A DNA stretch of 37,858 bases from Myxococcales bacterium (GTDB taxonomy: Bacteria; Myxococcota_A; Polyangia; GCA-2747355): contig JAGQIK010000359.1 of the NCBI GenBank assembly GCA_020431405.1, positions 1 to 37,858 of the forward strand, read 5' to 3'. Below the pieces are notes generated by a model. The model saw nothing but the letters and a program-made list of their open reading frames with translations. It did not search any database and was not told where the DNA came from. Position 1 is the first letter of the stretch, and the number at the start of each line of letters is the position of its first letter. Shown here in pieces: positions 5,528 through 19,859 of the stretch. Position numbers and translations under genes: made by a program.

Positions 5528-7080
5528 CGACCGAGGCGCGCGCGCAGGACGCGCTCGAGACGGCGCTAGGCGACGTTGACCTCGACACCGAAGAGGGGCG
5601 CGCGTTCTTCGCGGGCAGGCTAGCGACCTTTGGGGCCGCGTGTGCGGCGGTATTGCTGTTGTGGGTTGGCACCGACGTCTTCGCGCACCTTTTCACCAAT
5701 CTGCACTGGGTGCGCTTCGACAAGGAGCCGCACCCGTTTTCGTGGCACACCTACTTCGTCGCACAAGGCCGCTGGCTCTACGGCGCCTGCGTTGTGGTGG
5801 GCGTCACGTTGTGGCTGCTGTATCGCGACGGCCGCCGCGCCGCTTCGCGCCGTGCCCTTCGACTCGCCGACGCGACCAGCTTCTTGCTCGTCAGCGCGCT
5901 GTTCGCGATCGCGTCCATCGGCTGGGACAGCTGGGCCGGCCTGAGCGGGCTGGTCGTCTTTTCGGTGTTTCGCGTGGCCACCGTACCGACGAGCGCGCGC
6001 CGCACGCTGCTTCTCTGCGGCGCCGCGATGGGCGTCTTGTTTCTCACCCTGGCGACGTGGACCGCGATCTACGAGCCACCGGTCAAGGGATACCTGCTGT
6101 GGGTCTTGTCGCTGCAGGTGATCATCGGCGGCGCGATGCTGACGCTGGCAACGTTGCTCTCTCGCACCGTCTTTCGCCTGCGCGAGGCGCTGCGCGATAG
6201 CGAGCGCATCGGCCAGTATCACGTCGGCGCGGAGATCGGTCGCGGCGCTATGGGGGCGGTCTACTCGGCGCACCACCGCCTGCTGCGCCGGCCGACGGCG
6301 CTCAAGCTGCTGCGGCCATCGCCCGAGCTGAGCGAGCGGGCCATCAACCGCTTCGAGCGCGAGGCGCAGCGCACGGCCGAGCTATCGCACCCCAACACGA
6401 TCGTGCTCTACGACTACGGTCGCGCGGCCGACGGCACGTTCTACTACGCCATGGAGCACCTCGACGGCGTCACGCTGGCCGAGCTCGTCGACGAGCACGG
6501 GCCGCAGCCGCCGGCGCGCGTGATCCATCTCTTGCACCAGATCTGCGGCTCGCTCTGCGAAGCGCACGCGGCAGGGCTGATCCACCGCGACATCAAGCCG
6601 GCCAACGTGATGTTGTGTCATCGCGGCGGCGTGCCCGACGTGGTCAAGGTGCTCGACTTCGGCCTCGTACGCGAGGTCGGCGGCGACGCGGGTGACGGCA
6701 TCGTTGGCACGCCGCTCTATATGGCGCCAGAGACGATCGAGGCGCCCGGCGACATCGACGCGCGCGCCGATCTCTACGCTGTCGGCGCCGTCGGCTACTT
6801 CCTGCTCACCGGCAAGCCGCTGTTCGACAGCACCGACAAGATGCAGACGCTCGAGCACCAGCTGCTCGACGCGCCACGCCGGCCGTCAGCGCGGCTCGGT
6901 CAAATGCTGCCGGCCGACATCGAGCGGCTGATCATGCGCTGCCTGAGCAAGGAGCGCGACGGGCGCCCGGCGAGCGCCGAGGCATTGGAGCAGGCGCTCG
7001 AGCGCTGCGGCGACGCGGGCGGCTGGACCGTCGACGACGGCGCCCGCTGGTGGGCACGATTTACAGCTGCTCGATCGTGA
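5524..7080 (+). CDS. Membrane Ser/Thr protein kinase (kinase 3)
   Basis: A 518-residue kinase with N-terminal membrane segments (about 33-215) and a complete C-terminal catalytic domain. Visible motifs are the Gly loop GRGAMGAVY (239-247), ALK with Lys261, HRDIKPAN (354-361), DFG (378-380) and GTPLYMAPE (395-403), plus the helix F sequence ADLYAVG. All residues needed for phosphotransfer are present. It is a close paralogue of kinase 2: they share the juxtamembrane layout, the segment DEHGxQPPAR and a C-terminal Trp-rich tail (GGW...RWW here, EGW...NWW there). Translation is probably coupled, since its GTG overlaps the upstream stop in the sequence GTGA. Its 3' end overlaps the convergent lipoprotein gene by 20 bp. 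No extracellular sensor domain is recognised; the sensing part is presumably the membrane domain itself. Confidence 0.9.
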   Translation: MTTEARAQDALETALGDVDLDTEEGRAFFAGRLATFGAACAAVLLLWVGTDVFAHLFTNLHWVRFDKEPHPFSWHTYFVAQGRWLYGACVVVGVTLWLLYRDGRRAASRRALRLADATSFLLVSALFAIASIGWDSWAGLSGLVVFSVFRVATVPTSARRTLLLCGAAMGVLFLTLATWTAIYEPPVKGYLLWVLSLQVIIGGAMLTLATLLSRTVFRLREALRDSERIGQYHVGAEIGRGAMGAVYSAHHRLLRRPTALKLLRPSPELSERAINRFEREAQRTAELSHPNTIVLYDYGRAADGTFYYAMEHLDGVTLAELVDEHGPQPPARVIHLLHQICGSLCEAHAAGLIHRDIKPANVMLCHRGGVPDVVKVLDFGLVREVGGDAGDGIVGTPLYMAPETIEAPGDIDARADLYAVGAVGYFLLTGKPLFDSTDKMQTLEHQLLDAPRRPSARLGQMLPADIERLIMRCLSKERDGRPASAEALEQALERCGDAGGWTVDDGARWWARFTAARS

Positions 7081-8083
7081 GCTTGAACGCGCCGCGCGAG
7101 CCGAAGAGGCCGACGGTGGGCGAGCGCATGTTGCCGTCTACCGCGATGATGACGATGCTGTCGCGCCGCGGCGCGAGCTCGAGGCTAGTGATGCCGCCGG
7201 TGACCTTCTTCTGGCAGCCGTCGAGGAAGTCGTCGTGCGAGCACTCGGGCGACATCGCGTAGAGCGCCGCAGCAAAGCCAGCCAGCAGCGAGACCGCGTA
7301 GCGCTGCCCGCCGCGCAGCTGCACCCTGTAGAAGACCTGCGGACCAGGCGCGCAGTGTGGGTACCAGTCGTCGAACTGATCGCGCGCGCCGGCGGTCGTG
7401 CCCCAAATGACAGTTGGCGCGCGATCGCGCAGCGCAAGCGGTTCGGCGTTGGCGCAGCGGTCGTTGCGCAGGCTCGCGAGCTGCGTCACGGTGAGCTCGT
7501 AGGCGAAGCCGGAGCCATGGGCGCCGTCGACGGCGAGCGTGTACTCGCCACTAGCTCGCGGATCGAAATACATCGAGCCCTCGCCGACCGTGCCATACCA
7601 GCCGTCGCTGCCGCATTCGGCGTTGATGTTGTTGGGGTGGCACTTGCCGCGAAAGATGTAGAAGCTGCCGGCGTTGAGGTCGATGCGATACGAGCGCTCG
7701 CTCGAGAGCGTGAGGCGGTAGTAGCGCTGGCCGCCGGCGAAACGCGAGCGCTGGGCCGTGCTCGGATTGTTGTATCCGTCGGTGAGGATGCAGTCGACGT
7801 CGTTGCCGAACTCGGGGCGAGCGTTGAAGGTCTCGCCACGGACCCGCACCACGCCGTCGGGGCCGAAGCGCAGCGGCTGAGCCATCTCGCAGCGGTCGTT
7901 GGGCGTGCCCGTGCGGCTGGCATCGATCGCGACAGGCTGCTTCGTGGCGGTCACGTTGGTGGGGGCAGGGCGGCTTTGTGGGTTTGGCGGGTCGACAGCT
8001 GGAGGCTCTGGGGCGCCGGGAACGTCGCCGCCACAGCCGGCGAAGAGCATGGCGAGGATGGTGAAGGTCGAGCAGCGGTTCAT
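7061..8083 (-). CDS. Secreted lipoprotein with two tandem PPC-like beta domains
   Basis: A 340-residue protein with a lipoprotein signal peptide: a hydrophobic stretch ends in LFAGC, placing the lipidated Cys at 17. A Pro-rich linker follows. Two related modules come next, each opening with NDRCxxAxPL (from residues 62 and 207). They have Tyr/Arg-rich beta strands resembling bacterial pre-peptidase C-terminal (PPC) domains, with several Cys that may form disulphides. No catalytic motif is visible, so it is probably a surface binding or structural protein. ATG 8083 is supported by GGAGGG about nine bases upstream and by the signal peptide starting there. It is convergent with kinase 3; whether it is a kinase target is unknown. 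Confidence 0.72.
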   Translation of the reverse strand: MNRCSTFTILAMLFAGCGGDVPGAPEPPAVDPPNPQSRPAPTNVTATKQPVAIDASRTGTPNDRCEMAQPLRFGPDGVVRVRGETFNARPEFGNDVDCILTDGYNNPSTAQRSRFAGGQRYYRLTLSSERSYRIDLNAGSFYIFRGKCHPNNINAECGSDGWYGTVGEGSMYFDPRASGEYTLAVDGAHGSGFAYELTVTQLASLRNDRCANAEPLALRDRAPTVIWGTTAGARDQFDDWYPHCAPGPQVFYRVQLRGGQRYAVSLLAGFAAALYAMSPECSHDDFLDGCQKKVTGGITSLELAPRRDSIVIIAVDGNMRSPTVGLFGSRGAFKLTIEQL

Positions 8084-8192
8084 CAGGCGTTCCCTCCGTC
8101 TTCGCGACCTGCAAAGAGCAAGGGCTGGGCCGGCTCCGCGGCTCGAGGCCTGCGCTCGCGATTTCGGTGGGATAGGCCGCAAGAGGGCCAGT

Positions 8193-8214
8193 CGAGTGCA
8201 AGAAGCTGCACTCG
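8193..8214. promoter_or_regulatory. Perfect 8-bp inverted repeat, operator or hairpin
   Basis: CGAGTGCA and TGCACTCG are perfect inverted copies separated by AGAAGC. The element sits 41 bp beyond the stop codon of the upstream minus-strand gene and about 110 bp ahead of the lipoprotein start. No T-run follows on either strand, so it is not a standard intrinsic terminator. It could be an operator for a dimeric regulator or an mRNA hairpin. Confidence 0.45.
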
Positions 8215-8255
8215 GCGCAATCTGCTGCAGACTTCGCTGGCCCGCCGTTGGGGCG

Positions 8256-10286
8256 CTAGGGAGCGGCGAGCGGAGGCGCGCCCAGCTTGGCGAGGCAGTA
8301 GTGCAGCCCGCTGGCCGCGTGGTCGCGCCAGCGACCGTCCTCGAAGCGCGAGGCGGCGAGGTAGGCGGGCAGGGCCGCGCTGCAGCCCGCTGCGAGGAAG
8401 AGGGCTTCGCCGAGGGAGAAGGACAGCTCGTGGTCGAAGCGGGGCGCCGGCTCGAGCTGCAGCGCGAGACGGTAGGTCGCGATGGCCTGATCGAGATAGC
8501 CCCGCGCCTGGGTGCGCTGGGCGTCGCGATGCGCGCGCATGGCGAGCTCGCCCACGAGTCGTGCGGCCGACGCGTGGCACGCGCGGTCCCAACCGGTGGG
8601 CTGGGCCATCAGTCTGTCCGTGGGCCCGCGCAGCGTCGTGTCGCCCCACGGGCGCTCGCGCAAGACGGCTTCGAGCGCGCCAACCTGCCACCAGCAGCGT
8701 CGCGCGTCGCGCGGCGCCGCCCGCCACAGCGCGTCGTAGACCCGCCGCGCCGCGGCGGCGCGTCCCGAGGCGAGCAGGGCGCGCGCGCGCGCTTGCGCTT
8801 GCTCGACCGAGGCGAATCGCGGTGTGGGCGAGAGCGCGGGCGGGGCGGTCGGGTCGAGCTCGAAGATCACGCGCGACCGCAAGCGCGCGCCTTGTCGCAC
8901 CGGTGGGATCACGACCTCGGAGACTGCGCGCGCCAGGCAGCGACCTAGCGCGGCGTCCACGCTGCGCACAGGACGCACCTCGTGCGCGAAGCCGCTGGCG
9001 CCCCACGCCGTGCGCAGCTCGATCTTGCCGCGCAGCCCAGGCCGGCGTCTCAGGACCGCACGGTAGCAGTCTCGGTAGGCGCCGAGGTTGTAGCGCAGCA
9101 CGCGATGCAGCATGCGCGACGGCGTAAAGGCGACATGGCGCAGGGCGCAGCCCGTGCTGATGGTGACGCGCGGCGGGCAGACGCGATGGCGACAGGCGCG
9201 CTGGCGCTCTCGCTCCGCCTGCTGCTCGTCGAAGTCGCTCACGTCGAAGGTATCGAGGTGCAGCAACGGGGCGCGCCGCGTCACTGGCGCCAGGCGTACG
9301 CAGCGCCGCGTCGGCGCGCGCTCGCGCTTCGATGCGCCCGGCGCGGCCGGCACGCGGTCTGGCCGCTGCTTGGAGGGGACGAACTTCAGCGGCACCTCGA
9401 ACGGCGTGACGAGCGCGCGAGCGGAGTCGAGCTCGAGACCCCAGAGCGCGCCTGCGACGCACTTTGCGAGCGCGCGGTGAGCGGGGGTGTTCGCGGGTGG
9501 CACCACCGAACGGATCGACACCTTGCCCCAGACTCCGACGCGGCCAGAGACGCGAAAGGTGCCGCCGACAGCGCGCGACAAATGAAAGCGTGCCCAGCGA
9601 TAGCACAGCTCGAGATGCAGCCGACGTCGCAGCAGCGCGGCCTCCAGCGGGTTCTTGCCGCGCCGATGCTCGGGGCCGAGGCGGCCGCCGACACGAGGCC
9701 CGTCGAGCAGCGGCCGCAAGCGGATCGGTTGCAGGCTGAGGCGAATCTCGCGCTGAGACGCTTCGTCCCCGCGGCAGGTCAGGGCCCCGAGCGCCGTCGA
9801 CGGGCGGGGCGTCGCGGCTTCGGCGCGCCGCAGATCGACGAGCGTGCCCAGCTGCGCGCCCTCTCGCAGCTGGCTAGCAGCGACGAATCCGCCGTGCGCC
9901 AGCGCCCCGGTGGCGAGCGCTAGACCAAGCGCCGTCAGCGTGGCGAGCCGGTCGACGCGCCCCAGTTGCCACAGCAGCGCGGCGACGCCCGTGGCCAGCG
10001 GGGCGCTCGCGGCGAGCACCACCAGCGGCAGGTCGCCCGCGAGCATCGCCCGCGTGACCGCAGCCAACACGGCGGCCAGCGCGAGCAGCGCCCACGTCCG
10101 GCCGCGCAGCAGCCCGACGGTAGCGCCGAGCAGCGCGAGCAGCGCCAGGCCGTCATGGCGCTCGCTGGCGAAGGCCAGCGCCGCCGAAGTGGTGGCGATG
10201 CCGGCGACCACCAGGAGCATCGGGATCGGCGCGTGCTGCTGAGACGGAGAGAGGAGGCGGTTTCGACCGCGTGCTGAACGGCGCAT
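8256..10286 (-). CDS. Membrane protein with two AgmX/PglI-type domains and a TPR-like tail
   Basis: A 676-residue protein. The N-terminal part holds about five hydrophobic segments (about 20-150). Two copies of a module resembling the AgmX/PglI C-terminal domain of gliding and motility proteins follow. The first begins near LELCYRWARFHLSR and the second near YRDCYRAVLRRRPG. Each has a Cys-Tyr opening, a beta strand ending in a Gly turn, and a second Cys (KCVAGAL, RCLARAV) before a final strand. The C-terminal 170 residues are helical and TPR-like. An envelope scaffold or assembly role is plausible by family, but no partner is encoded here. ATG 10286 is used; an ATG at 10220 would shorten the N-terminus by 22 residues. 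The gene is divergent from the sigma-54 activator, 60 bp away. Confidence 0.65.
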   Translation of the reverse strand: MRRSARGRNRLLSPSQQHAPIPMLLVVAGIATTSAALAFASERHDGLALLALLGATVGLLRGRTWALLALAAVLAAVTRAMLAGDLPLVVLAASAPLATGVAALLWQLGRVDRLATLTALGLALATGALAHGGFVAASQLREGAQLGTLVDLRRAEAATPRPSTALGALTCRGDEASQREIRLSLQPIRLRPLLDGPRVGGRLGPEHRRGKNPLEAALLRRRLHLELCYRWARFHLSRAVGGTFRVSGRVGVWGKVSIRSVVPPANTPAHRALAKCVAGALWGLELDSARALVTPFEVPLKFVPSKQRPDRVPAAPGASKRERAPTRRCVRLAPVTRRAPLLHLDTFDVSDFDEQQAERERQRACRHRVCPPRVTISTGCALRHVAFTPSRMLHRVLRYNLGAYRDCYRAVLRRRPGLRGKIELRTAWGASGFAHEVRPVRSVDAALGRCLARAVSEVVIPPVRQGARLRSRVIFELDPTAPPALSPTPRFASVEQAQARARALLASGRAAAARRVYDALWRAAPRDARRCWWQVGALEAVLRERPWGDTTLRGPTDRLMAQPTGWDRACHASAARLVGELAMRAHRDAQRTQARGYLDQAIATYRLALQLEPAPRFDHELSFSLGEALFLAAGCSAALPAYLAASRFEDGRWRDHAASGLHYCLAKLGAPPLAAP

Positions 10287-10333
10287 GGGGAGTCCGACAC
10301 CGACATCTGCTTCGAGTTCCGTGGCCAGCGCGG

Positions 10334-10339
10334 TAACCT
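10334..10339 (+). promoter_or_regulatory. Candidate -10 element for the sigma-54 activator gene (leaderless-type placement)
   Basis: TAACCT fits TANNNT and lies at -13 to -8 relative to the ATG at 10347. There is no Shine-Dalgarno in the 60-bp divergent gap. No good -35 is seen. Confidence 0.3.
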
Positions 10340-10346
10340 CGCGCCG

Positions 10347-12188
10347 ATGTCGAGCGACGAGACCTCACCCGTCAGCGAAAGCGAGCTCGCTGGGCTGCTG
10401 GCGCGCAAGCGCGCGCGGGCGGCGCGACGACTCTCGTTGCTGCTCTACCACCTCGATGGTGTGCGCACGGTACAGCTCGCCGAGGGGATGAGCCTCGTCA
10501 TCGGACGTGACGCGCCAGCGGACGTGACGGTGCGCGACAACAGCCTCTCGCGCCAGCACGCCACCATCGAGCTCAGCGGCGGGCAGGTCTGGGTCGAGGA
10601 TCTGGAGTCGACCAACGGTACGCGCATCGACGGCGAGCGCGTCGAGCAGCGCACGCTGCTGCCCGTCGGCGCGGAGCTGACGCTCGGCGCGGTGGTGGGG
10701 CTGCTGCACGGCGACGAGTCGGGCGACGGCGACCTCGAGCTCGTCGAGAGCCACGACCGCTTCGCGCGCGAGCTTTCGCGCGAGGTGGCGCGCGCGCGAG
10801 CGATGCACCGACCGCTCGCGGTGCTGATGATGCGCGCCTCGGATCGCAGCCACGCCGGGCGCTGGCTCGATGCGATCACCGTTCAGCTGCGCGACTTCGA
10901 TCGCGTCGCCTTCTATAGCGGCGGCATCCTCGAGGTGCTGGCGCCCGAGCTCGACGGCGAGGGGGCGCAGAAGCTCGCCGAAGCGATGCGCGCCGCGGCC
11001 GCGTCGAGCGCGGCGCTGACCTTGGGCGCGGCGACGCTGCCCGCACATGGGACGTCGGCGCTCGAGCTGCTCGACAGCGCACGGGAGGCGCTGCTGGCCG
11101 CGAGCCCGGATGCGCCGGTGCAGCTGGCAGTCAGCGCGACGAGCGCGGTCGCACAGCGATCGGCCATGGCGGGCGGCGAGGCGGCGCGCGTATCCCCCGA
11201 CTCGCCGATGGCCAGGGTCTACGCCACCATCGAGCGCGTGGCCTCGTCGAGCATCCCGGTGCTGATCCAAGGCGAGACCGGCGTCGGCAAAGAGGTGGTG
11301 GCGCGCGCGATCCACGAGCACGCTTCGAGCAAGCGCGCCGCGCACCCGCTGGTGGCGGTCAACTGCGGCGCGATCCCGTCCGAGCTGCTGGAGTCGACGC
11401 TCTTCGGCCACGAGAAGGGCACCTTCACGGGCGCCGACGCGCGCAAGAAAGGCGTCTTCGAGTCGGCCGCCGGCGGCACGGTGCTGCTCGACGAGGTCGG
11501 CGAGCTGCCGAAGGACGCCCAGGTCAAGCTGCTGCGCGTGCTCGAGTCGAAAACGATCACGCGCCTAGGCTCCACCGACGAGATCGCAGTCGACGTGCGC
11601 GTGCTCGCCGCCACCCATCGTGACCTCGAGGCGATGTGCGCTGCAGGTACGTTTCGCGAGGATCTGCTCTACCGCCTCAACGCGATGACGCTGCACGTGC
11701 CGCCGCTGCGCGAGCGCAGCGCGGAGCTCGACGACCTCATCGAGCGCTTCGTCGCAGCGGCCAATGTTGCCAACGACCGTCGCGTGGTCGGCCTCGACGA
11801 GGAGGCCGACGAGCTGCTGCGGCGCTACAGCTGGCCCGGCAACATTCGCGAGCTGAAGAACGCTATCGAGCGCGCGGTCGTGATCGCGCCGTCGGATCGC
11901 ATCGGCGTCGACGACCTACCGCAGCGGGTACGCGAGCTGGCGAGCCGCCAGACGCCAGACGTCGATGACGACGCCGCGGGCGACGCGGAGGCCGCGGCGC
12001 AGCCGCTCAACCTCAAGGCAGAGCTTTCGCGCTACGAAGGCGAGCTGATCCTGCGCGGCCTGCGCGCGGCGAGCTGGGATCGCCACGAGGCCGCGCGCCT
12101 GCTCGGGCTGCCGCTGCGCACGCTGCACCACAAGATGCGCAGCCACGGTATCAAGCGCCTCGCCTACGAGCGTGACGGCGAGGGCTAG
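10347..12188 (+). CDS. FHA / degenerate GGDEF / sigma-54 AAA+ / Fis-type transcriptional activator
   Basis: A 613-residue bacterial enhancer-binding protein. An FHA domain spans about 30-125, with GR at 53-54, SRQH at 68-71 and TNG at 89-91, the phospho-Thr binding set. Residues 135-252 follow the GGDEF fold in length and pattern, but the signature is [10 protein letters not shown], so no diguanylate cyclase activity is expected. The AAA+ domain has Walker A GETGVGKE (309-316), Walker B LLDEVGE and [10 protein letters not shown] with the likely arginine finger. The sigma-54 contact loop reads GTFTGA instead of GAFTGA (358-363). A Fis-type helix-turn-helix lies at about 565-610. It probably activates sigma-54 promoters in response to a phosphoprotein. 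The nearby kinases are plausible inputs, by inference only. Confidence 0.93.
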
Positions 12189-14535: not shown

Positions 14536-16380
14536 ATGACCGATGGCTCGCTCCTAGAGGCCTACTACCTCAGCGACGACCCCGACGAGGTGCTCGCCGC
14601 GGCCGCCGCCGTGCGTGAACAGAGCCACGGCGAGGTACGCAAACCCGAGCTCGTGTACGTGCGCACGGGCAAGCCCGAGCGCGACGGGCTGCTGTGCGCC
14701 AAGATCTTCGGGCCCATCGAAGACCATCGCTGCCTCTGCGGCAAGCTCGCGGGCCGCGAGCACGCAGGCGAGCAGTGTGACCGCTGCGGTGTGCTGTGCG
14801 GCGAGCGCGCCCTGCGTGGGCAACGCTGGGCGCACATCGACGCCACGGTGCCGCTGCTGCATCCGATGCTCGCGCAGCGCATCGCCAGCCTGCTCGGTCT
14901 GTCGGAACGCTCGCTGTCGCGCGTGGCACGCGGCTCGGCGAACCTCCGTGACGATGGCACGCTGGTGCTGGCCAAGCGCTCCGAGTTTGGAGGCGTGCAC
15001 TTCGATGACCCTGACGAGGACGAGGCGCGCGACCGTCGCGGGCTCACGCGCATCCGCCAGCGGCTCGCCGCGCTCGACGCCGAGCACGCCGCGCTGATGC
15101 CGGAGCTCGTGCCGGTGCCGCCAGCGGCCTGGCGCGGCGGTCAGCGCGACGCCCAAGACACGGCCTTCATGCGCCTGGTCAACCGGCGCAACCGCTACGT
15201 GCGGCTGATCGAGCTCGACGCGCCGCCGATCATCCTCGACAATGAGCAGCGGCTGCTCTTCGATCGCTACCGCGCGCTGATGAAGGTGCTGCGCCGCGAG
15301 CTTTCGGCGCGAAAGGCACCCGCGCCGCGGGCGCGTGACGCCGACCGCGAGGCCGCGCTGCTGGCGGCGATCCGCGAGCGGCCGGCGGAGGACGAGCCGC
15401 GCGCGGTCTATGCCGACTTCTTGCTCGCGCACGGTGATCCCCGAGGCGAGTTCATCTCGATGCAGCTCGAGAACAAGCACGCAGCGCGCCTCTCGAAGGT
15501 CGAGAGCGAGCTTTTGCGGCGCCATTTCGAGCAGTGGATGGGGCCGTTGGGGCAGGCCGCCGCTCGCGACGGGCACGTCGTCTTCCGGCGCGGCTTTCCC
15601 GTCTCGATAAAGGTCGATGACAAGGCCGCCGCCGAAGTGATCGGCGAGGCAGCCTGGGCCACGCTCGAGCATGTCGAGAGCGGCTCGGCAGAGCTCTTGG
15701 CGGACCCGAGCTTGCGTGCCCTCGAGCGCATCAGCACCAACTTCCGTACGCTGCGCGCGCTGGCCAAAGACGAGGCGCGTCTCGGTGGCGTGCGCTCGGC
15801 GCTCGTGCGCATGCGCTCGACCCCGCCACCTGGTCACTCGTCAGTTGTCGAGGGCGATGTTCTGCCGGCGCTGCGCGAGCTGACGCTGCTGAGCTCCGGC
15901 TATCGCGCCGAAGAGGACTGGAGCTGGCTCGATGGCGCCAAGCTGACCAAACAGCTCGAGGCCCTGACGCTCGCCAGCAACAGCGATCACCTCGAGGAGG
16001 TGCGCCTCGACGACTGGCTCGCGTTTCTCTCGCGTCACCGCCAGCTGCGCACGCTGTGTTTGACCTTCGATCGCAAGGCGCTCTGCTTCGACATCACGCC
16101 GCCCGGCGAGGACGGCCTCGCCGAGCTCACGATCACAGCCGCGGCGAAGTTCATCGAGTACACATCCATCATCGACGAGCTGCCCGATCGCCTGGCTCGC
16201 CCGCTGTTGAGCTGCGATCCGCGGCGCTGGCGCGCGCTGCGCTTCGAGGCGCCCGACTACTATCTCAGCGACAGCCTCGTCGACGCCCTGCGGCGCGTGG
16301 GCGAGCACTTTGGCGACAAAGCGAGGCTCCCCGAGCTGCGGGAGGTCGCCGAGGCGCGGAGTGCGGAAGTCGCCGGCTAG
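14536..16380 (+). CDS. Fusion of an RNA polymerase beta' (RpoC) N-terminal fragment with a TIGR02996 / leucine-rich-like region
   Basis: A 614-residue protein. Residues 26-60 follow the RpoC N-terminus, including GEVRKPE and KPERDGLLCAKIFGP. Next is CLCG(x11)QCDRCGV, with Cys66, 68, 81 and 84 in the same spacing as the beta' zinc site. The helices after it are RpoC-like. Residues about 188-250 match the beta' clamp region, including VNRRNRYVRLI and ILDNEQRLL. Similarity stops there, before the active centre; the NADFDGD motif is absent. Residues about 268-310 match the TIGR02996 repeat-companion domain (LLAAIRERP...RAVYADFLLAHGDPRGEFI). The remaining 300 residues are Leu-rich and LRR-like. 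It cannot be a catalytic polymerase subunit. It might contact a sigma factor or act as an RNA polymerase mimic, which is inference. ATG 14536 is the first start before the conserved part. Confidence 0.85.
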   Translation: MTDGSLLEAYYLSDDPDEVLAAAAAVREQSHGEVRKPELVYVRTGKPERDGLLCAKIFGPIEDHRCLCGKLAGREHAGEQCDRCGVLCGERALRGQRWAHIDATVPLLHPMLAQRIASLLGLSERSLSRVARGSANLRDDGTLVLAKRSEFGGVHFDDPDEDEARDRRGLTRIRQRLAALDAEHAALMPELVPVPPAAWRGGQRDAQDTAFMRLVNRRNRYVRLIELDAPPIILDNEQRLLFDRYRALMKVLRRELSARKAPAPRARDADREAALLAAIRERPAEDEPRAVYADFLLAHGDPRGEFISMQLENKHAARLSKVESELLRRHFEQWMGPLGQAAARDGHVVFRRGFPVSIKVDDKAAAEVIGEAAWATLEHVESGSAELLADPSLRALERISTNFRTLRALAKDEARLGGVRSALVRMRSTPPPGHSSVVEGDVLPALRELTLLSSGYRAEEDWSWLDGAKLTKQLEALTLASNSDHLEEVRLDDWLAFLSRHRQLRTLCLTFDRKALCFDITPPGEDGLAELTITAAAKFIEYTSIIDELPDRLARPLLSCDPRRWRALRFEAPDYYLSDSLVDALRRVGEHFGDKARLPELREVAEARSAEVAG

Positions 16381-16381
16381 T

Positions 16382-17137
16382 CTAGAGCGCGTCGATGATG
16401 CCGACGAGCTTGTCGAGCGCGGCGAGCACTTCGGAGAAGAAGTCGGCGAGCTCGTCGCGGTCGATGATCTCGTCGTAGCTGGCGAAGCTGAGCAGCTTGC
16501 GCCACACGGCGAGGTCCTCGTCACCGACCAGCGCTGCGAGGGCATCGACGAGCGCACCAGGCTGCACGGGCGTGGAGGGCAGGGCGGCGTCTGCCGCGAT
16601 CAGCGCCCCCTCGAGCAGATAGAGCAGCTTGCGCGCGGCGCGGCGCAGCTCGGAGGCCAGCGGCTGCAGCCGGTCGCCCACCTCGAGGTAGGTCTGCACC
16701 AGCTCGCGATGGATCACGCGCAGGTTCTGCTCCACGCGCAGGCGCAGGCGGGCCGCGTCGACGGCGAGCTCGTCGAGGGGATCGCTGCCGCCGGCGAGCA
16801 GCTCGCGCGTGGCGATCAGCTCGAGGGTCATCACCGGAAACGCGTCGGCGCTGGCGAGCAGCGCCTCGGCTGTGTCGACGCGCAGCTGCACCTGGCGCGA
16901 CTTGGCGGCGTGTGCCAGCGGCGAGATCGCATCGAGCACCGCGCGGTCGATGCGGTCGATGAGCAGCAGCACGCGCGCGCGTGACGCTTTGGGGCCGCGG
17001 CCGAAGGTCGAGCCAAAGCGGTAGGCGGCGACGAAACGTACGCCGAGCGCGTCGCGCAGCTCGACCGCGATCTGCCGGCAATCAGCGCTGCCGTCGCCGT
17101 CTTGCGGCTGCTCGTGGGCGATCGTCACCGCAGCCAC
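16382..17137 (-). CDS. Hypothetical protein, possibly nucleotidyltransferase-fold plus helical domain
   Basis: About 251 residues. The N-terminal part reads VELRDALGVRFVAAYRFGSTFG, then a hydrophobic strand RVLLLIDRID. This recalls the GS motif and following strand of minimal nucleotidyltransferases that share a fold with HEPN-linked proteins. The usual paired Asp after GS is not clear, so catalysis is doubtful. The C-terminal half is all helical and rich in Arg, Leu and Glu. GTG 17137 or GTG 17128 could be the start; no ribosome binding site separates them. The frame stays open upstream across the divergent gene, but that part is low-complexity antisense. The stop lies 1 bp from the convergent RpoC-like gene. 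Its existence is likely; the function is weakly supported. Confidence 0.5.
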   Translation of the reverse strand: MAAVTIAHEQPQDGDGSADCRQIAVELRDALGVRFVAAYRFGSTFGRGPKASRARVLLLIDRIDRAVLDAISPLAHAAKSRQVQLRVDTAEALLASADAFPVMTLELIATRELLAGGSDPLDELAVDAARLRLRVEQNLRVIHRELVQTYLEVGDRLQPLASELRRAARKLLYLLEGALIAADAALPSTPVQPGALVDALAALVGDEDLAVWRKLLSFASYDEIIDRDELADFFSEVLAALDKLVGIIDAL

Positions 17138-17215
17138 TTTGCCAAAAAAACACGTGGCGAGGGGAAGAGATCCTCGGTATCGCTGGCGTAGGAGTCTGGC
17201 GAGGGAGGAGCGCCC

Positions 17216-17839
17216 ATGTTCTTCGAGGCTGGCGTCGCGTTGTGCGTGGGAGGTATCTATGCCGGCAGCAAGCTCGTGGAGTGGATCCGCGATCCTCGCC
17301 GCGCGCTGATCGGCCTCGAGCGCACCCGGCTTTGCGACGCGCGCGACGGCGAGCAAATCGCATGTGTTGGCGTCATACGGCGCGCGCCGTTCGTCGCGGA
17401 GCTGTTCGCTGCACCGGTGAGCGGGCGCAGCTGCGTAGGCTGGTCGATCAAGGCAGTGGCTGGCTGGCCGCTTGGCGAGGACCTCCGCACCGGCGTGTTG
17501 CAGGACTTCGTGCTCGATGACGGCAGCGGCGACGTCGCTCTCGTGCGCGGCGCAACCGATTGGACGCTGCTCGCGGCCGATCACGAGTCCGCGAACCACG
17601 ACGAGGCCAATTTCCAAGAGAAGACCTACGAGCTGCTGTGGCAGCTTGGCCTCGAGCCGACGCACAGGAACTTCTCGCGCGTGGAAGAGGCGGTCCTCGA
17701 GGAGGGGGAGCGCGCGATGATCGTGGCGACGGTATCCCGCGCGCCAGACGTCTATCGTACCGGGGCCTGGCAGCTCGAGCTCGTCGCGGCTGACGGCGGG
17801 CTTCGCGTCAGCGACGACGCACGCGTCGTTGCGGACTAG
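17216..17839 (+). CDS. GIDE/MULAN-like domain membrane protein
   Basis: A 207-residue protein with one N-terminal hydrophobic segment (about 3-23). A beta-rich domain follows the pattern of bacterial homologues of the GIDE domain known from mitochondrial E3 ligases. The pattern is RTRLCDARDGEQIACVGVIRR, then APVSGRSCVGW, then DFVLDDGSGDVALV, then an E-x-VLEEGERAMIVATV segment. No RING domain is present. ATG 17216 has a strong GGGAGGAG site upstream. The 3' end overlaps the convergent FliI-like gene by 4 bp: both stops lie in the palindrome CTAG. The function of the bacterial versions is not known to me. Confidence 0.6.
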   Translation: MFFEAGVALCVGGIYAGSKLVEWIRDPRRALIGLERTRLCDARDGEQIACVGVIRRAPFVAELFAAPVSGRSCVGWSIKAVAGWPLGEDLRTGVLQDFVLDDGSGDVALVRGATDWTLLAADHESANHDEANFQEKTYELLWQLGLEPTHRNFSRVEEAVLEEGERAMIVATVSRAPDVYRTGAWQLELVAADGGLRVSDDARVVAD

Positions 17840-19185
17840 CGCATCAACTCGACGAGCCGTGCGCGCGCCTCGTCGAGCCGCGTCTGCTCGTCGGTGCGCT
17901 GCTGCAGGTAGGCGTTGACCGCGTCGATGCGCGCCAGCGCGTCGTCGACGCGCGCGTCGCTGCCGTGCTGGTAGGCGCCGAGCAGCACCAGATCGCGCTT
18001 GTCCTCGTAGGTCGCGAGCACCTGGCGCAGCTTGGTTGCCGCGGCGCGCTGCGCTTCGTCGGTGACGGCGGGCATCACGCGCGAGAGGCTCGCTAGCACG
18101 TCCACCGCCGGGAAGTGTCCGCGCTGCGCCAGCGTGCGGCTGAGCACGATGTGTCCGTCGAGGATGCCGCGCACCTCGTCGGCGATGGGCTCGTCCATGT
18201 CGCCGCCTTCGACGAGCACGGTGTAGATCGCGGTGATCGAGCCGCGCTCGGCGGTGCCTGTTCGTTCGAGCAGCCGCGGCAACTCGGCGAAGACGCTCGG
18301 CGGGAAGCCGCGCCGCGCGGGCGGCTCGCCGGCGGCGAGGCCCACCTCGCGCAGCGCGCGCGCGTAGCGCGTCACCGAGTCGAGCAGCAGCAGCACGCGC
18401 TTGCCTTCGTCGCGGAAACGCTCGGCGATGGCGGTGGCGGTAAGCGGCGACTTGAGCCGCACCAGCGGCGGGGCGTCGCTCGTGGCGCAGACCACCACCG
18501 AGCGCGCCAGGCCCTCGCCGAGCGACTCTTCGATGAACTCGCGCACCTCGCGGCCGCGCTCGCCGACGAGACACACCACCACCGCGTCGGCGTCGGCCGA
18601 GCGTGCGATCTGGCCCAGCAGCGTCGACTTGCCCACGCCCGAGCCGGCGAAGAGGCCGATGCGCTGTCCTTCGCCAGCGGTCAGAAGCCCGTCGATGACG
18701 CGCAGGCCGAGCGGCAACGGGCGCTCGATGCGCGCGCGCCGCAGCGGATCGGGCGCGCTGCGCGAGACCGGTGTTGGCTCGAGGCCCTGCGGCAACGGTC
18801 GGCCGTCGATAGGCTCGCCGAGCCCGTCGAGCACGCGGCCGAGCAGCTGCTCGCCCACGCCGACCTCGAGCGGGCCGCCGCTGGCTTCCACCAGCGAATC
18901 GGGACCCACGCCGGCCGTCTCGCCGAGCGGCATCAGCACCACCTGCTCGCCGGAAAACCCCACCACCTCGGCGCCGAGGGCTGACAGCCCGCTGCCGCGG
19001 GCGATCTCGACGCGGTCGCCGACGCGCACGCCGGGCATGGTGGCGCGCAGCACCAGACCCGTGAGGGCTGTGACGCGCCCGCGCACGGTCACCGGGCGAG
19101 CGCGCCCGAGCCGTGACAGCGCCCGATCGAGCGGGGGGCGATCAGCCTGTTGACCGGCGAGCGGCGGCCGCTTGCTGTCGCTCAC
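17836..19185 (-). CDS. fliI: Type III secretion / flagellar export ATPase (FliI/SctN family)
   Basis: A 449-residue ATPase of the usual family length. The N-terminal barrel is followed by Walker A GSGVGKST (181-188), the catalytic-Glu segment VGERGREVREF and Walker B LLLLLDS (264-270). The highly conserved run RYARALREVGLAAGEPPARR, DEPIADEVRGILDGHIVLSR and a helical C-terminal domain complete it. It would energise unfolding and release of substrates at a type III export gate. The start is GTG, overlapping the FliH-like stop as GTGA. No rod, ring, gate or chaperone gene is in the window, so it may serve a distant flagellar-type or injectisome-like apparatus. The symbol could equally be sctN; sequence alone does not decide. 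Confidence 0.93.
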   Translation of the reverse strand: MSDSKRPPLAGQQADRPPLDRALSRLGRARPVTVRGRVTALTGLVLRATMPGVRVGDRVEIARGSGLSALGAEVVGFSGEQVVLMPLGETAGVGPDSLVEASGGPLEVGVGEQLLGRVLDGLGEPIDGRPLPQGLEPTPVSRSAPDPLRRARIERPLPLGLRVIDGLLTAGEGQRIGLFAGSGVGKSTLLGQIARSADADAVVVCLVGERGREVREFIEESLGEGLARSVVVCATSDAPPLVRLKSPLTATAIAERFRDEGKRVLLLLDSVTRYARALREVGLAAGEPPARRGFPPSVFAELPRLLERTGTAERGSITAIYTVLVEGGDMDEPIADEVRGILDGHIVLSRTLAQRGHFPAVDVLASLSRVMPAVTDEAQRAAATKLRQVLATYEDKRDLVLLGAYQHGSDARVDDALARIDAVNAYLQQRTDEQTRLDEARARLVELMR

Positions 19186-19859
19186 GGCGCGTCCTCGATC
19201 AGCGTGCGTTCGATGACGGCGAGCTGGCTTTCGAGCCGGCCGTCGATCTCGCCCGCGTCGGTCTGCACCACACAGCCACCGGCTGCGATGCTGGCGTCGG
19301 CCTCGACGAGCAGCGCCTCGCTGTCAGCTAGCGCGGCGAGCCGCGGTGCCGCGTGCTGCACCACCGCGACGTCGCTCGGGTTGACACGCACGACCACGCG
19401 TCGCGCGGCGCCGGCCTCGCGCAGGCATTGCGCCACCACGTCCGCGACGAGCTGCGGCGAGAGCCCGAGCGCGCGGCCGAGCAGCTTCTCGGCGATAGCC
19501 ACGCCGAGGGCTGTCAGCTGCTGCTCGCTCTCTTCGAGCAGCTTCGCGCGCTCGGCGCGCGCCTTGACGGCGATGGCAGCGGCCTGCTCGCGCGCCTCGT
19601 CGACGAGGCGCGACGCGAGCACCGCGCCGTCCTCCTCGGCACGCTCGCGGATCACGTCAGCTTCGACGTGGGCGTCGTCGATCATGCTCTCGGCGCGCGC
19701 GCGCCGCTGCAGATCGCGCTGCTTGAGCACGCGTGTGCGTCGTCGCGAGAGCGGCGCGACGTTCGCATCGGGGCGACCGGCGTCAGCTTCGACGTCACGG
19801 CTGACTGGCGGCGGCGGAAGCTCCGAGCCGCGGATGATGCGGCCGCGCCGCTCGCTCAT
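19182..19859 (-). CDS. fliH: FliH/SctL-like stator protein of the export ATPase
   Basis: A 225-residue protein with an Arg-rich N-terminus and a long Ala/Glu/Arg coiled coil (about 45-120). The C-terminal globular part has GVAIAEKLLGRALGLSPQLV, then RVVVRVNPSDV and EADASIAAGGCVVQTDAGEIDGRLESQL. The final stretch, with the GG turn and the DxxxDxRLxxQL ending, is the hallmark of FliH/SctL and V-ATPase E-like stators. It would tether and regulate the ATPase encoded immediately downstream. It overlaps both neighbours by 4 bp (ATGA and GTGA), implying coupled synthesis. Confidence 0.88.
   Translation of the reverse strand: MSERRGRIIRGSELPPPPVSRDVEADAGRPDANVAPLSRRRTRVLKQRDLQRRARAESMIDDAHVEADVIRERAEEDGAVLASRLVDEAREQAAAIAVKARAERAKLLEESEQQLTALGVAIAEKLLGRALGLSPQLVADVVAQCLREAGAARRVVVRVNPSDVAVVQHAAPRLAALADSEALLVEADASIAAGGCVVQTDAGEIDGRLESQLAVIERTLIEDAP

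Follow-up and report, generated by a model that had tools for sequence, protein, structure and literature searches.

Which task could a protein perform that carries the N-terminal zinc site and clamp helices of the RNA polymerase β' subunit and ends its likeness to that subunit before the active centre? The question is raised by one open reading frame in a 37,858-nt stretch of DNA, here called the window (contig JAGQIK010000359.1 of assembly GCA_020431405.1), from a Myxococcales bacterium that we take to be a soil-bacterium relative of Myxococcus. A preliminary description of the window had read this frame as a piece of RpoC fused to a TIGR02996/leucine-rich repeat (LRR)-like protein. It had suggested profile searches of both halves, structure prediction with superposition on the β' clamp and a survey of other Myxococcota.

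Results

A β' N-terminus joined to a repeat-like arm

The coordinates given beforehand, 14536-16380 on the forward strand, are right: the frame begins with ATG at 14536, ends with a stop codon at 16378-16380 and encodes 614 aa. Its codon-position G+C (0.74/0.50/0.86) is the same as that of the surrounding real genes. Profile matches to the translation and full-length homologues in two other genomes, G108 and G109, support its annotation as a CDS for a β' clamp-like domain followed by TIGR02996 and an LRR-like domain.

The N-terminus gave a significant match to the NCBIfam RpoC model TIGR02386 (1.9e-31, residues 20-130 in two stretches) and to Pfam RNA_pol_Rpb1_1 (1.9e-10, residues 1-265), the sole Pfam match of the protein. 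Solved β' chains in the PDB matched down to 9.6e-35 over residues 20-123 and 187-254, and identity to E. coli β' is about 45% over residues 20-130. The equivalent of the β' zipper (residues 31-45, E. coli 35-49; 14626-14670, +) keeps 7 of 12 RpoC-invariant residues. It is followed in the alignment to RpoC by the KPERDGLLCAKIFGP segment (residues 46-60, E. coli 50-64; 14671-14715, +), the best-kept stretch of the protein: of the 13 invariant residues across E. coli 50-65, 12 are retained. In the zinc-binding domain (residues 62-90; 14719-14805, +) C66, C68, C81 and C84 align with E. coli C70, C72, C85 and C88 at the same CxC-12-CxxC spacing, and CxxCGVLC stands in place of the RpoC CEKCGVEV. 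The clamp helices (residues 205-258; 15148-15309, +) are delimited by the alignment, a structural model and a published list of sigma contacts (PMC10216364). The RpoC-like N-terminus, the four-Cys zinc site with identical spacing and the clamp coiled coil at 188-250, all proposed in the preliminary description, are borne out.

In an AlphaFold2 model of residues 1-265, built from four sequences (pTM 0.59, mean pLDDT 64), two long helices span residues 206-226 and 231-258. VIA-align placed 222 model residues on solved β' chains (Z 15.2, 4.1 Å, 29% identity), so that the predicted head fits β' clamps. This separate model was used for the head because a full-length model from three sequences gave pLDDT 25-50 for the N-terminus. 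The fold is predicted with moderate confidence, and the homology is independent of it.

Compared with RpoC, the N-terminus, zinc site and clamp helices are homologous and have the same fold in the model; unlike RpoC, the window protein has no active centre, lid or rudder, and its TIGR02386 score of 108.8 bits is far below the curated RpoC cut-off of 963.5. As had been claimed, it leaves RpoC ahead of the catalytic core, near E. coli residue 315 (NADFDGD sits at 458), and continues into TIGR02996 at residues 272-312 (15349-15471, +; 7.2e-14, 51.3 bits against a cut-off of 29.05). For the C-terminal domain (residues 313-600; 15472-16335, +), a putative LRR fold, as proposed earlier, comes from the model (pLDDT mostly 70-90) and from Foldseek, which matched it to the Skp2 LRR (1fs2; E 3.7e-4, TM 0.42 by target); no LRR model of Pfam matched the protein. 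Overall, these comparisons confirm the predicted architecture, a β' N-terminus with zipper, four-Cys zinc site and clamp helices joined to TIGR02996 and a putative LRR-like domain.

TIGR02996 is a common domain in the host, with 42 matches in its genome. Like the window protein, TIGR02996 proteins of Myxococcota and Gemmata, many of them in the same genome, have the domain above cut-off and then an LRR-like part. The others found here start with TIGR02996 itself or with HEAT-, zinc-finger- or WGR-like parts, whereas the window protein starts with a polymerase domain. Within the host, TIGR02996 proteins such as those at L111 1624-3417 and L115 2-2443 have varied N-termini, among them HEAT-like repeats and segments that by eye resemble a PARP-type zinc finger and WGR. 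The nearest TIGR02996/LRR modules outside the family described below (L130 697-3603 and L145 7319-10276) lie in proteins of about 970 aa, with flanks that by eye are HEAT-like and WD40-like. In the mostly open-access literature we found nothing on TIGR02996.

Host genome and gene neighborhood

The host genome is an 11.2 Mb draft in which another rpoC lies on contig C372, ruling out that the window gene is a split or fragmented rpoC. The C372 gene keeps the zinc-site end and the clamp helices; its profile match starts at position 69, the N-terminus being cut by the contig start. No match to rpoB domain 6 was found in the draft, and together with the position of rpoC at a contig edge this probably reflects an assembly gap at rpoBC. 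Searches of the genome gave 65 matches to sigma region 2 and a single NusG.

The window gene is solitary: a DUF5916/CBM9 gene diverges from it on one side, the frame at 16382-17164 (-) meets it tail-to-tail on the other, and this context points to no partner. Beside it we found no sigma gene, polymerase genes or conserved operon, and across the family groups no shared neighborhood. PADLOC assigned no family to the protein, and for its direct neighbors it returned only a generic sigma54-activator ATPase; a defence island was rejected on this result, and no mobile or defence context was seen around the gene. A phage origin was likewise rejected, as scans for viral contigs were empty and phage β' falls outside the family clade. 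The frame at 16382-17164 encodes a protein of at most 260 aa with no Pfam match; close to the N-terminus, GSTFGR resembles by eye a nucleotidyltransferase motif. Farther along, at 17836-19859 (-), a FliI/type III secretion-type ATPase adjoins a FliH-like gene, with coaD-like and rsmD-like genes nearby (by eye).

A family with one head and two types of arm

We surveyed 318 genomes of the class. The fusion recurs in full length in two Polyangia MAGs, G109 and G108 (42% and 40%, both over about 600 aa), which we place in group A. Beyond these, the same head occurs more widely: about 14 further Myxococcota proteins either join a clamp-like head to a different, β-rich domain or are truncated by the end of a contig; the frames of G130 and G421 lie at such ends. 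In group B (G304, G283, G286, G282, G117), group C (G113-G117, G119) and G333, a Lujinxingiaceae MAG from outside the class, the heads sit in frames of about 560-700 aa without TIGR02996, and the β-rich C-terminal domain is homologous among them. A 621-aa match in G014 was dropped as a shadow reading frame.

A tree of the N-terminal region places groups A, B and C, G130 and G333 on one side with support of 100/98, against RpoC, the composites described below and phage β'; long branches make this clade less sure than the value suggests. All four zinc cysteines are kept in every member tested, group B included, and most members have CxxCGVLC at the last zinc cysteine. Judging by dN/dS of 0.28-0.48 in close pairs, the sister groups B and C are under purifying selection (dN/dS <0.5).

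Sigma-facing residues are kept over other clamp-helix residues in groups A and C and in G333

In a sigma32 open complex, R275, R278, R281, L282, L285, I291, E295 and M298 of the clamp helices contact sigma region 2 (PMC10216364), and R275, E295 and A302 have been named essential in the β' coiled coil (PMC8321222). The counterparts of the first seven in the window protein are R217, R220, R223, L224, L227, I233 and E237; the retention of Arg275 and Glu295 stated in the preliminary description is correct. Over the eight contact positions the window protein reads RRRLLIEL against RRRLLIEM in E. coli, which gives 7/8 kept, compared with 8/8 in G109 and 7/8 in G108. The third classical position, A302, is an arginine (residue 244).

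This retention exceeds that of the rest of the helices. The window protein keeps 6/7 RpoC-invariant sigma contacts and 11 of about 29-32 other invariant clamp-helix columns (permutation p 0.02); the same excess is found in G109 (7/7 vs 10/32, p 0.0008), G119 (6/7 vs 7/32, p 0.003), G108 (p 0.016) and G333 (p 0.007), where all permutation and Fisher values are modest and uncorrected and the sequences tested are related rather than independent. For the three contact residues that are hydrophobic, helix packing may be the reason for retention. Among the polar ones (R275, R278, R281, E295), 4/4 are kept in all of group A, 3-4/4 in group C and 4/4 in G333, compared with 2-6 of 17 other invariant polar clamp-helix residues; the excess for polar residues alone has p values of 0.02-0.035 in group A, 0.006-0.05 in group C and 0.012 in G333. 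In groups A and C and in G333, sigma contacts thus appear to be kept preferentially over other clamp-helix residues, an effect that is modest but repeated. Group B (G283, G286, G282, G117b) has lost R275, R278 and E295, keeps the zinc site and shows no contact excess, which means that the clade as a whole cannot share sigma docking as its function.

Elsewhere in the head, group A keeps 6-7/7 RpoC-invariant sigma contacts, 7/12 zipper residues, 9-12/13 over residues 50-65 and all zinc cysteines. Lost are the lid (0/12), most of the rudder (2/7) and of residues 131-240 (2-4/21); in residues 1-34, 1/8 invariant positions is kept, and everything past about residue 315 is absent.

Composites of docking faces lacking catalytic parts

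Four genomes encode stand-alone β' or β-flap/β'/α-CTD proteins without the catalytic motif. The G124 composite (L069 8325-10850, -; 841 aa) joins the β flap and β C-terminus to the N-terminal half of β'. Those of G153 (L070 about 6000-8851, +) and G575 (L129 289-3219, +; 976 aa) have the same layout, with an α-CTD in G153 (PF03118, 4.1e-11) and an end that is α-CTD-like by eye in G575. Each is one open frame running from the β flap (about 816-933, flap-tip EEKLLRxIF) through the β C-terminus from about 1230 to the β' N-terminus up to about 480-495; the β' NADFDGD and the middle of β (about 942-1223), which holds the catalytic Lys, are missing. All three keep both sigma docks, the flap-tip for sigma4 and the clamp helices for sigma2, and G124 and G153 also have a normal-length rpoC. 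The fourth genome, G122, of the same genus as G124, has a stand-alone β' head of 333 aa with no arm (L068 8386-9387, -), which groups with the G124 composite in one tree.

The composites are not the nearest relatives of the window protein. In trees they fall into more than one clade, and the form may thus have had several origins. Together with the G122 head, they lend weight to the view that these bacteria have a use for docking faces stripped of catalysis, and they are possibly the bigger finding.

Discussion

We tentatively propose, as a reading that is possible but not yet probable, that the window protein is a natural non-catalytic mimic of the RNA polymerase core. Sigma region 2 would dock on its head, and its LRR arm would serve as a partner-binding or sensing part. 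Such a mimic would bind region 2 of one or more host sigma factors as the core enzyme does, and would compete with RNA polymerase for sigma in the manner of a core-mimic anti-sigma factor. The TIGR02996/LRR arm would contact a further protein by which the mimic is controlled or targeted. The mimic might in addition hold sigma at promoters with no transcription taking place, because an isolated E. coli β' fragment, residues 1-314, suffices together with sigma to melt promoter DNA (Young, Gruber and Gross 2004, according to the accounts in PMC12000874 and PMC4057154). This free, sigma-binding fragment covers nearly the same span. It is engineered and has no arm, whereas the window protein is natural, lacks the lid, is about 45% identical over residues 20-130 and carries the TIGR02996/LRR arm.

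The sigma-decoy idea is partly supported by comparative evidence: contacts are kept over the rest of the clamp helices, the lid and the catalytic parts have gone, and both docks persist in the composites of other genomes. Against it count the loss of contacts in group B, the A302R exchange in the window protein and the lack of an adjoining sigma gene or operon. With slightly more reserve still, Myxococcota might use mimicry of the RNA polymerase core as regulation, with catalytically dead docking-face proteins (clamp heads with LRR or β-rich arms, and composites) competing with the core for sigma.

The strongest rival is an adaptor built on the zipper and zinc domain with no sigma role, in which the head would have nucleic acid or some unrelated protein as its ligand and the arm would hold a partner, much as F-box proteins combine a docking domain with an LRR or propeller. 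It draws its strength from the zinc site being universal in the family, even in group B, and the sigma contacts not. Two arm types on one head, TIGR02996/LRR in group A and β-rich in groups B, C and G333, and the abundance of TIGR02996 in the host also fit; the polar sigma contacts kept over other clamp-helix residues in A, C and G333 are left unexplained, and we consider the adaptor rather doubtful. Phage factors target this face of RNA polymerase, and the head could instead be a decoy or guard against phage or competitor proteins that attack the clamp or zinc site, with the LRR arm signaling as in the integrated decoys of plant immune receptors. The LRR type of the arm, HK022 put RNA and P7 complexes among the structural matches and dN/dS values in groups B and C that are fairly high for an RNA polymerase relative would agree with this; the blank PADLOC result, with only the generic ATPase beside the gene, the lack of a mobile or defence context and the absence of an effector domain make it unlikely.

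The NGN domains of NusG dock on the clamp helices where sigma also binds (PMC7819879), which would allow capture of NusG-type elongation factors through the same surface. The host has one NusG compared with 65 sigma region 2 matches. NusG binding also needs the β gate loop, which we take to lie in the part of β absent from the composites, and such capture is improbable. As a true β' paralogue, the protein might enter RNA polymerase as a replacement for part of β' or chaperone its assembly, but precisely the enzyme-internal parts are gone (lid, rudder, residues 1-34 and all after about 315), which makes this very improbable. That it is a decaying, functionless rpoC copy, as the long tree branches might suggest, is scarcely credible given the many genomes in which the frame is intact at about 600-700 aa, the zinc cysteines all kept, dN/dS below 0.5 in close pairs and full-length homologues at 40-42%.

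Returning to sigma docking, the nearest regulatory parallel is PhyR-NepR, where a regulator copies one half of a sigma-partner interface to compete, as proposed here. PhyR copies sigma, whereas the window protein would copy the opposite side, the core enzyme, and the two are not homologous. Described anti-sigma domains did not match (Pfam returned only RNA_pol_Rpb1_1, NCBIfam only RpoC models and TIGR02996). We found nothing on RpoC paralogues in myxobacteria or on mimics of the RNA polymerase core in the literature, mostly open-access and hence a weak negative. The earlier statement that no described system is known to have such an architecture agrees with these searches. No described family accommodates the protein, which fails as RpoC and has no anti-sigma or defence match, and we rate its kind as new. 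If sigma is bound, the protein would turn sigma mimicry around, being a natural core copy that controls sigma in bacteria with dozens of sigma factors, and a natural version of the β' 1-314 fragment offering a testable route to sigma competition in large genomes. Should sigma not be bound, this conserved clade, in which stand-alone clamp proteins carry exchangeable repeat arms, is still an undescribed use of a highly conserved protein part.

Free-standing β' N-terminal pieces also exist in large phages (the L140 contig, IME392). Unlike the window protein, these either belong to working polymerases that are split or, as in Rhizobium phage Y65, are a whole β' with NADFDGD, and they have no LRR arm; the Y65 β' groups with RpoC, outside the family clade (100/98). 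L140, a Bacteroidetes-binned contig resembling a large phage, was rejected as a family member since it encodes a split polymerase β' (7398-8624 and 9045-10601). Its N-terminal piece has CDRCGVLCG, and CxxCGVLC is for this reason not a clean marker of the family.
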